A DNA stretch of 64,000 nt, taken from assembly GCF_000196655.1 (NCBI RefSeq), contig NC_014253.1:1116001-1180000 (forward strand), given 5' to 3'. The stretch's first letter is position 1. Every line of letters starts with the position of its first letter. Shown here in pieces: positions 44,491 to 57,664 of the stretch. Both the position numbers and the translations under genes were made by a program. The DNA comes from Methanohalobium evestigatum Z-7303. Lineage in GTDB: Archaea > Halobacteriota > Methanosarcinia > Methanosarcinales > Methanosarcinaceae. The notes beneath the pieces are model-generated. The model was given only the letters and a program-made list of their open reading frames with translations. It did no database searches and was not told the DNA's origin.

Positions 44491-44785
44491 GTGATCACTT
44501 TACCTAGATAACAATCTACATTAGATTTTATTTTTCATTGAATATATAATAAAACTTTGCTTGGATAAGATTATAATCATGGGAGGGTGTGAGGGGCTGT
44601 TTAGCAGGTTTTATCAGGAGGTTGCTTTTTGTTTCTATCTCTTTATTAATATGTTTTAACAGTTGTTCCAACTATCAAATAATGTACAAAAATAACTATA
44701 CATATCATGTAATAATTGGCAAAAGTAACAATTGTTGATTACTCCGAACCAAAAAAAGCTTATCAGACATCATATATTTTATTTC

Positions 44786-45535
44786 ATGGACGAGTCAGCT
44801 ATTTTTGAGATTTTCAACGGCCTGCCACGCCAGGGTCCCAGCAGCAACAGATGTACAGAAAAAGCTTTCAGAATGATTCCATCCCTGCCTCCAGAACCCA
44901 GGATACTCGATATCGGCTGTGGAATAGGAATGCAGACCATCCATCTTGCAGGTATATGTAAAGACTGTCATATCACTGCAACCGACATTTATCAACCCTA
45001 CCTTGACAAATTGATGGAAAATGCAGCAGAAAAAGGGGTAGCAAACAGGATATTCACTGTACGTGCTTCTATGGATGACCTGCCATTTGAAGATGACGAG
45101 TTCGATTTAATCTGGTGCGAAGGGTCCATATTTATAATTGAGCTTGAAAAAGGTCTCAACTACTGGAAACGTTTCTTGAAGGGTGGTGGTTTCATAGCGC
45201 TGACAGAAGCAGTCTGGTTCACCGAAAATCCATCAGAGGAATCCCTGCAACTCTGGCAGGAAGCCTATCCCGATATCAAGACAATTCCTGAAACTAAAAA
45301 AGCTATCTAGTCTACGGGCTACAAAGTAATATCCAGTTTCAAATTACCTGCACCCGCATGGTGGGACGATTTTTATGTTCATCTCGAGAAAAAGCTTGAT
45401 TCATTAGAAGCAGAGTCCAAATATAACACAGATGTCAAATCCTTGATAGAGTTTTCCAGAAAGGAAATAGAGGTATTCAGGAAACATTCGGATGAGTATG
45501 GATATGCTTTTTTTGTAATGCGAAAATTAGATTGA
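44786..45535 (+). CDS. SAM-dependent methyltransferase with in-frame UAG (possible pyrrolysine)
   Basis: The Rossmann methyltransferase motif I is ILDIGCGIGMQTIHLA (about residue 38) and a motif-IV-like FDLIWCEGSIFII follows. A TAG codon interrupts the frame at 45308-45310, but the same frame goes on for 74 codons (STGYKVISSFKLPAPAWWDD...) to TGA at 45533-45535. That tail looks like the normal C-terminus of this family. TAG is almost unused as a stop in this window, so readthrough as pyrrolysine is plausible; a nonsense mutation is the alternative. Start ATG 44786 (MDESAIFEIFNGLPRQGP) is favoured over TTG at 44732. Substrate unknown. Confidence 0.75.
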
Positions 45536-53610: not shown

Positions 53611-54976
53611 AAAGATGAAGAAAACCACGATGTCTTTAGCATCGTGGTATGATAAATAGTCAAAAAAAGATAAGTATTTTGCTAAATGATTGTATAATGC
53701 ATGTATCTAACCCAGAAGAATCATCTCCGTGCTGATAAGCAGACGTATGAAACTTTGAAGAGGTTGACCAAACTGTCCAAGAACCTGTACAATTTTACAT
53801 TGTACAATATCAGGCAGTACTTCTTCAACTATGGTAAATATCTCAATAAGAATACCGCTTATCACACGGTCAAAGAGAACGAGAATTACAGATTAATGCC
53901 ATCACAGGTAGCCCAGAATACTGTGGAGACTGTAGATGGCGGTATGAAATCGTTCTTCAAACTTCTGGATAAGAAGAGAAAAGGTGAATATGAAAAGCCA
54001 GTTTCCCTTCCAAAATATCTGGCTAAAGACGGAAACTTCATTTGTACTTTCAAGAAAGATCAACTGAAAGTTATCGATGACAAAATCAGACTGTCATTGG
54101 GCCCTGAATATGGTAGAACATATGGAACCAGATACCTGTATTTCAAGATACCTGATAACATACTAGGTCAATACATCAATCAGGTCAGGATCGTACCGAA
54201 ATACAAGGGAAGATGGTTCGAGATAGATTTTGTCTACCATGAAGATGGGGAGATTGCTGAACTTGATTACAATAGCCATCTATCGATAGATTTAGGCGTA
54301 GATAATTTTGCGACCTGCGTGACGACCAGTGGGACGGCCTTCATACTAGACGGCAGGGGTATCAAATCTTACAACCGCTGGTGGAACAAGGAGAAGAGCA
54401 GGTTGCAGTCAGTCTACGATAAACAGGATGTTGATAATGGGATCAAGATGGATAGGTTCTCTAATAAAAGGTTCTGGAAGATAAATGATTTCATGAACCA
54501 GTGTGTCAATCACATCGTTAAACACTGTCTGGAAAATCGGATTGGTAATGTTGTGATTGGAGAGCTGAAAGAGATCAAACAGGAACAGAATATCGGCAAA
54601 GAAAACACCCAGAATTTCCAGACAATACCGTTTGCCAGGTTTAAATATAAATTAGCGTCTAAGTGTAAATACCATGGTATAAAGTATCAAGAAGTAGATG
54701 AGGCTTATACCAGTAAAGTTGATGCACTGGCTTTGGAACTCATCAAAAAACATAAGAAATATCTTGGTAAAAGACCTAAAAGAGGAATCTTCCAGTCATC
54801 TACAGGTAGACTGATCAATGCCGATATCAACGGTGCATTGAACATCTTGAGAAAGGTAATCGGTGATTCCCTTGCAGGGATAACCGATAGTGGGGACGTG
54901 AACTCCCCGGGAAGAATAAGACTTTCCTGGTAACCTTCTTCCGAAGCCGCTGAGTCTTTAGCTCAGCGGTAGTTCA
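53611..54976 (+). mobile_element. IS200/IS605-type element, tnpB only (family copy 2)
   Basis: Left end after TTAT: AAAGATGAAGAAAACC, then the hairpin CCACGATG/CATCGTGG. Right end hairpin CCGCTGAG/CTCAGCGG and TAGTTCAC. Confidence 0.85.
53701..54933 (+). CDS. tnpB: TnpB without zinc ribbon, copy 2 (410 residues)
   Basis: Same family as the copies at 26321 and 56388. D in SIDLGVDNFATC, E in VVIGELKEI, D in NADINGALNI. No CxxC pair. One IGKEN unit where copy 1 has four. Complete, ends RLSW then TAA; the 3' end reads into the right-end hairpin from which the guide RNA is expected. Confidence 0.9.
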   Translation: MYLTQKNHLRADKQTYETLKRLTKLSKNLYNFTLYNIRQYFFNYGKYLNKNTAYHTVKENENYRLMPSQVAQNTVETVDGGMKSFFKLLDKKRKGEYEKPVSLPKYLAKDGNFICTFKKDQLKVIDDKIRLSLGPEYGRTYGTRYLYFKIPDNILGQYINQVRIVPKYKGRWFEIDFVYHEDGEIAELDYNSHLSIDLGVDNFATCVTTSGTAFILDGRGIKSYNRWWNKEKSRLQSVYDKQDVDNGIKMDRFSNKRFWKINDFMNQCVNHIVKHCLENRIGNVVIGELKEIKQEQNIGKENTQNFQTIPFARFKYKLASKCKYHGIKYQEVDEAYTSKVDALALELIKKHKKYLGKRPKRGIFQSSTGRLINADINGALNILRKVIGDSLAGITDSGDVNSPGRIRLSW

Positions 54977-56297: not shown

Positions 56298-57664
56298 AAA
56301 TATGAAGAAAACCACGATGTCTTTAGCATCGTAGTATGATAAATAGTCAAAAAAAGATAAGTATTTTGCTAAATGATTGTATAATGCATGTATCTAACCC
56401 AGAAGAATCATCTCCGTGCTGATAAGCAGACGTATGAAACTTTGAAGAGGTTGACCAAACTGTCCAAGAACCTGTACAATTTTACATTGTACAATATCAG
56501 GCAGTACTTCTTCAACTACAGTAAATATCTTGATAAGAATACTGCTTATCACACGGTCAAAGAGAACGAGAATTACAGATTAATGCCATCTCAGGTTGCC
56601 CAGAATACCATAGAGACTGTAGATGGCAGTATGAAATCATTCTTCAAACTTCTGGATAAGAAGAGGAAAGGTGAATATGAAAAACCAGTTTCACTTCCAA
56701 AGTATCTGGATAAAGACGGCAACTTCATATGTACATTCAAGAAAGATCAACTGAAGGTTATCGACGACAAAATCAGGTTATCATTGGGTTTGGATTATTA
56801 CAGAACTTATGGGATTAGATACCTATACTTCAAGATACCTGGTAACATACTAGGTCAATACATCAAAGAAGTAAGGATAATCCCGAAATACAAGGGTAGA
56901 TGGTTCGAGATAGAATTTGTCTACCATGAAGACGAAGAGATAGGTAATCTGGATTATAACAGCCATCTATCGATAGATCTTGGAGTGGACAATTTTGCAA
57001 CCTGCGTGACGACCAGTGGGACTGCATTCATATTAGACGGCAGGGGTATCAAATCTTATAACCGCTGGTGGAACAAGGAGAAGAGCAGGTTGCAGTCGGT
57101 CTACGACAAACAGAATGTAGATGATGGAATCAAGATGGATAGGTTCTCTAATAAAAGGTTCTGGAAGATAAATGATTTCATGAACCAGTGCGTCAATCAC
57201 ATCGTTAAACATTGTCTGGAAAATCGAATCGGCAATATTGTGAATGGAGAGATGAAAGAAATCAAACAGGAGCAGAATATCGGCAAAAAAAATAACCAGA
57301 ACTTCCAGACAATAACATTTGCTAGGTTCAAACAGAAATTAGCTTCAAAATGCGAATACCACGGTATAAAGTATCACGAAGTAGATGAGGCTTATACCAG
57401 TAAAGTCGATGCACTGGCGTTGGAACCTATTAGAAAACATAAGAAATATCTTGGTAAAAGATCTAAGAGAGGAATCTTCCAGTCATCTACAGGTAGACTA
57501 ATCAATGCTGATATCAACGGTGCATTGAACATCTTGAGAAAGGTGATCGGTGATTCCCTTGAAAGGATAACCGATAGTGGGGATGTGAACTCCCCAGGAA
57601 GAATAAGACTTTCAAGGTAGACTTCTTCCGAAGCCGCTGAGTCTTTAGCTCAGCGGTAGTTCAC
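56298..57664 (+). mobile_element. IS200/IS605-type element, tnpB only (family copy 3)
   Basis: Left end after TTTAT: AAATATGAAGAAAACC and a CGATGTCTTTAGCATCG hairpin; right end CCGCTGAG/CTCAGCGG and TAGTTCAC. Confidence 0.85.
56388..57620 (+). CDS. tnpB: TnpB without zinc ribbon, copy 3 (410 residues)
   Basis: As copy 2, with small changes: NIVNGEMKEI at RuvC-II keeps the E but has N for I; IGKKN single unit; K for Y at FKQKLASKC. D in SIDLGVDNFATC and in NADINGALNI are present. It ends RLSR and then TAG, a rare stop here; in copy 2 the same place is TGG TAA. Probably functional, though the changed RuvC-II neighbour could matter. Confidence 0.88.
   Translation: MYLTQKNHLRADKQTYETLKRLTKLSKNLYNFTLYNIRQYFFNYSKYLDKNTAYHTVKENENYRLMPSQVAQNTIETVDGSMKSFFKLLDKKRKGEYEKPVSLPKYLDKDGNFICTFKKDQLKVIDDKIRLSLGLDYYRTYGIRYLYFKIPGNILGQYIKEVRIIPKYKGRWFEIEFVYHEDEEIGNLDYNSHLSIDLGVDNFATCVTTSGTAFILDGRGIKSYNRWWNKEKSRLQSVYDKQNVDDGIKMDRFSNKRFWKINDFMNQCVNHIVKHCLENRIGNIVNGEMKEIKQEQNIGKKNNQNFQTITFARFKQKLASKCEYHGIKYHEVDEAYTSKVDALALEPIRKHKKYLGKRSKRGIFQSSTGRLINADINGALNILRKVIGDSLERITDSGDVNSPGRIRLSR

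Follow-up and report, generated by a model that had tools for sequence, protein, structure and literature searches.

The methylamine:corrinoid methyltransferases MtmB, MtbB and MttB are corrinoid-dependent TIM-barrel enzymes in which pyrrolysine (Pyl), specified by an in-frame UAG codon, is a conserved catalytic residue. The closest precedent for the gene analyzed here is a non-methylamine gene of another Pyl-decoding cell: in the tRNA-His guanylyltransferase Thg1 of Methanosarcina acetivorans, an amber codon private to that one species can be translated as Pyl, a residue that is unneeded for activity (PMC2933860). Similarly, a survey that includes M. evestigatum among its genomes explains how a random mutation to UAG may be kept if the protein is not hindered by Pyl, for example in cluster 7 of T. 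potens (PMC3639795). Insertion of Pyl is described as a competition between Pyl-tRNA and release factor for which there is no obligatory mRNA element (PMC9499178), the PYLIS element being dispensable and the reading of a reporter amber codon in M. acetivorans amounting to about 20-30% (PMC2933860).

Here, an in-frame TAG codon was studied in a SAM-dependent methyltransferase gene located in a stretch of 64,000 nucleotides (the window) from the genome of Methanohalobium evestigatum Z-7303. The features of this gene are collected in Table 1. The claim of a previous sequence-only reading, that the frame continues beyond TAG for 74 codons up to a TGA, was borne out by the open reading frame, and homologues align through the extension. 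When counted from the ATG that corresponds to the start of homologous proteins, TAG is codon 175 of 249, while in a longer reading that starts with TTG at 44732 it specifies residue 193. The base directly 3' of the TAG is a T.

Table 1. The methyltransferase gene with its in-frame TAG codon; positions are those of the window.
Feature	Position	Strand	Remarks
SAM-dependent class I methyltransferase gene, 3kkz / BVU_3255 / BT_2972 family	44786..45535	+	249 residues with TAG decoded as Pyl; Pfam, PDB, AlphaFold
5' part, 174 codons	44786..45307	+	expected product of termination; stops within the helix preceding β6
In-frame TAG, codon 175	45308..45310	+	nearest relatives have Glu (GAG/GAA); variable in others
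Conserved 3' part, 74 sense codons (45311-45532) and TGA (45533-45535)	45311..45535	+	β6, two helices, β7; homologue alignment, model, rate comparison

The predicted protein matches Pfam Methyltransf_25 (E 3.4e-17) and, over residues 21-266, the structure PDB 3kkz (E 3.6e-52). An AlphaFold model built from 32 family members reached a mean pLDDT of 92.8 and a TM score of 0.93 to 3kkz. The Bacteroides proteins 3kkz (Q5LES9), BVU_3255 (3t7s, SAM complex) and BT_2972 (3svz) belong to the same family and share with the window protein its full-length fold (34-36% identity; TM 0.87-0.94) as well as the SAM motif DIGCG.G; unlike the window methyltransferase, they have no stop codon inside the protein. 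Homologues align end to end, across the TAG and its continuation, with identities of 69-75% for the closest relatives and of 35-53% for more distant ones, and beyond the TAG F185, W192, G239, Y240 and F242 are invariant. A second stop codon or a frameshift was not found in these 74 codons. Because homologue and fold matches extend over the full length, the stretch after the TAG is genuine coding sequence of the same methyltransferase. In the model and the alignment, the TAG residue sits at the end of helix 167-176, C-terminal to and outside of the SAM-binding motif. According to the model, a stop at codon 175 would cost strands β6 (179-186) and β7 (238-247) together with two long helices, and a product of 174 residues is therefore unlikely to be an active enzyme. 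The neighbors of the gene in the window, encoding an F420-dependent sulfite-reductase-like protein, a PTH2-like protein and an AAA ATPase, are uninformative with regard to function, and the gene contexts in two other loci (L010 and L015) are unrelated.

The sequence-only reading had made Pyl decoding depend on pyl genes elsewhere in the genome, and the whole system is indeed encoded by the host (two contigs, 2.41 Mb, 99.89% complete; main contig 2,242,317 bases). The gene pylS lies at C1:298792-299508 (366.6 bits; cut-off 178) and, with its N-terminal part, encodes 439 amino acids; a tRNA-Pyl with the anticodon CUA is found upstream of it. Adjacent and intact pylB, pylC and pylD genes are located about 0.6 Mb from pylS/tRNA-Pyl, the pylB match being above its cut-off and pylC and pylD being recognized as adjoining open reading frames (L155). 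Such a split pyl cluster has been reported for M. evestigatum as the exception among archaea (PMC3941956). Two mtmB copies in the genome contain one in-frame TAG each, as do an mttB-like and an mtbB-like gene in the sampled DNA. A third MtmB-family gene (L159, genome C1:1469862-1471208, minus strand; 657 bits) has an open frame of 460 amino acids without TAG and is a non-Pyl paralogue with Leu-Met-Gly at the usual Pyl site. From what is established about the Pyl system, a complete set of these genes means that UAG is a translated codon in the host cell. Together with the in-frame TAG codons of mtmB and of the mtbB-like and mttB-like genes, it makes Pyl insertion the default expectation for codon 175 as well.

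Also, stop codon usage was determined on a 498 kb sample of the host genome. Among open reading frames of at least 100 amino acids (n=435), 303 end in TAA, 120 in TGA and only 12 in TAG. In the window, TAG closes only the methyltransferase frame and one tnpB copy, in agreement with the earlier remark. Four of the 12 TAG ends are internal codons of recognizable proteins (mttB-like, mtbB-like, the methyltransferase and methanogenesis marker 12), two belong to tnpB copies, as judged by sequence, and several are probably no genes, as judged by eye. Frames of at least 60 codons follow 4 of the 12 TAG ends as compared with 33 of 419 TAA/TGA ends (Fisher p = 0.014), a weak statistic because many of the long TAA/TGA extensions are chance frames or neighboring genes; the evidence from homology for coding after the TAG is much stronger. 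If two non-classical in-frame TAG cases per 498 kb are typical, about 10 (interval 1 to 35) would be expected genome-wide. Two tnpB copies of the window (53701-54933 and 56388-57620) are of equal length, with 120 base differences between them; TAA closes one of them and TAG the other, which has a possible read-through tail of 15 residues. A fragment of an IS630-type transposase (L161:14065-14559, minus strand) contains two in-frame TAG codons.

The methyltransferase gene is present in 57 of 112 genomes of the family Methanosarcinaceae, i.e. in the window's own and in 56 others. At the site of codon 175, TAG is absent from about 110 other family loci, which include those of the 56 other genomes, some contributing two loci, and the window's copy alone has a stop there. 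In the relatives closest to it, at 72% and 70% identity, the codon is GAG/GAA (Glu), while AAG, ACG/ACA, ATG, GTG, CTG, TCT, AGG and CAA/CAG occur in others, corresponding to Lys, Thr, Met, Val, Leu, Gln, Ser or Arg. As the site takes so many residues, it should tolerate Pyl, a lysine derivative. All seven relatives tested possess pylS and would be expected to keep a functional UAG, yet they lack TAG at this site, and a conserved or functional UAG is therefore not supported. The sequence-only reading had itself named sense codons in all homologues of sister strains as an outcome that would refute its proposal, and the homologues compared in other Pyl-decoding Methanosarcinaceae all have a sense codon there.

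A Pyl residue that is selected and functional at codon 175, be it catalytic or regulatory, would constitute a new class of Pyl enzyme, and the host could make Pyl and insert it at this position. However, with the codon confined to one lineage, the site variable and the residue placed at a helix end beyond the SAM-binding motif, such a role is highly improbable. Of the earlier proposal of a Pyl enzyme outside the classical set, insertion of Pyl is to be expected given the full Pyl system, whereas the new functional class is not supported. An error in the assembly could also have produced the codon, which is one base away from a Glu codon and was seen in the single assembly of the species examined. 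Single-base substitution errors are rare in finished genomes, though, and this assembly consists of two nearly complete contigs, so that an error is highly improbable. With regard to the origin of the codon, the plain alternative offered by the sequence-only reading, a mutation to TAG from GAG or AAG, appears to be right. A mutational origin and a reading as Pyl are compatible, in that the mutated codon would probably still be translated.

A diverged paralogue of this methyltransferase family from another genus (L121, G023:C2:89705-90442) contains an in-frame TAG elsewhere in the gene, at position 110, where its two nearest relatives examined have TGT; this sequence stems from a draft assembly of about 230 contigs.

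We consider it likely, with a probability of about 0.7, that a lineage-specific one-base change created the TAG and that the product is rescued, at least in part, through insertion of Pyl, which would have no catalytic role. In the simplest case, GAG (Glu) or AAG (Lys) would have been converted to TAG in a dispensable SAM-methyltransferase gene. With tRNA-Pyl and PylS present, ribosomes would insert Pyl at codon 175 in competition with termination, and the expected outcome would be a mixture of termination product and some full-length, probably active enzyme in which Pyl is tolerated at a variable helix end. Codon 175 is thus likely translated, at least partially, as Pyl, while the evidence does not support a Pyl that is conserved or catalytic.

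The main rival is a nascent pseudogene, in which TAG would mainly act as a stop, the short product would be degraded and the gene would be in the process of being lost. The gene is indeed dispensable, since it is absent from about half of the family genomes and was not found in G029, the only genus-mate searched, where the locus is non-syntenic; for the same reasons, an attempt to date the TAG by means of this genus-mate failed. In addition, a relative (G038) has a methyltransferase copy (L099, G038:C2:152701-153450) with an in-frame TAA at a codon that is TAC in 58 of 63 copies, which shows that decay does occur here and there in this gene family. When a PYLIS-like structure was sought in the 120 nt after the TAG, folding was no better than that of shuffled sequences (z = -0.16), and structure favoring read-through is therefore missing, but PYLIS is not required for Pyl insertion (PMC2933860). 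Against a pseudogene stand the complete Pyl system of the host, the lack of further lesions and the rate at which the 3' part evolves: with the tree fixed, the window gene has a terminal branch of 0.218 in its 5' part and of 0.223 in its 3' part, a 3'/5' ratio of 1.02 as compared with 1.06 family-wide. These rates give no sign of relaxed constraint in the 3' part, although a very recent mutation would look alike and might by itself account for the intact 3' part. On balance, we regard a pseudogene as unlikely and favor partial rescue by Pyl.

In this form, the methyltransferase resembles Thg1: its UAG is private to one lineage, relatives have a sense codon and do without Pyl, the site tolerates substitution, and the remaining gene is intact and constrained, as would be expected for Pyl acquired by neutral evolution. 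In contrast to Thg1, whose Pyl was physically observed, the present case concerns another gene in another host and is known from its sequence. The classical enzymes MtmB, MtbB and MttB share with it the UAG decoding system and the host genome but differ in depending on a corrinoid and on a conserved Pyl, whereas the window enzyme is a Rossmann-fold SAM methyltransferase with no conserved Pyl. It also resembles the drift candidates in PMC3639795, where UAG is retained since Pyl is tolerated, and it may already be among the candidates ranked in that study. A literature search for M. evestigatum with "TAG codon" yielded nothing.

A second drift-like in-frame TAG in the host genome was detected at codon 258 of methanogenesis marker 12 (L165:166-1152, minus strand; genome C1:580166-581149, minus strand). 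This gene is single copy in the host, matches TIGR03281 over its full length (1-326) and belongs to a family that every one of the 86 good-quality Methanosarcinaceae genomes possesses. Codon 258 is CAG in the 96%-identical genus-mate and CAG/CAA in most others examined. In a 59%-identical homologue from another genus (L215, G037), whose genome encodes pylS, precisely this codon is TAG as well, while two examined congeners of G037 have AAA. Marker 12, a gene under strong retention, has thus changed to amber independently and in parallel in two genera. As a control, the essential gene valS showed an internal TAG in none of the listed copies above the family cut-off from the same genomes. Compared with the methyltransferase, marker 12 therefore gives stronger support to a productive reading of UAG outside the methylamine enzymes.

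That UAG is largely a sense codon in this lineage, with Pyl present in several non-methylamine proteins including the methyltransferase and the otherwise universal marker 12, is in our view possible but slightly less likely than not. The methyltransferase provides a testable case of Pyl spreading into ordinary proteins by drift, and a TAG in Pyl-decoding genomes should not automatically be annotated as gene end or pseudogene. With the methyltransferase and marker 12, the extent to which UAG is used as a sense codon in Pyl-decoding methanogens can be tested in one cultured organism.
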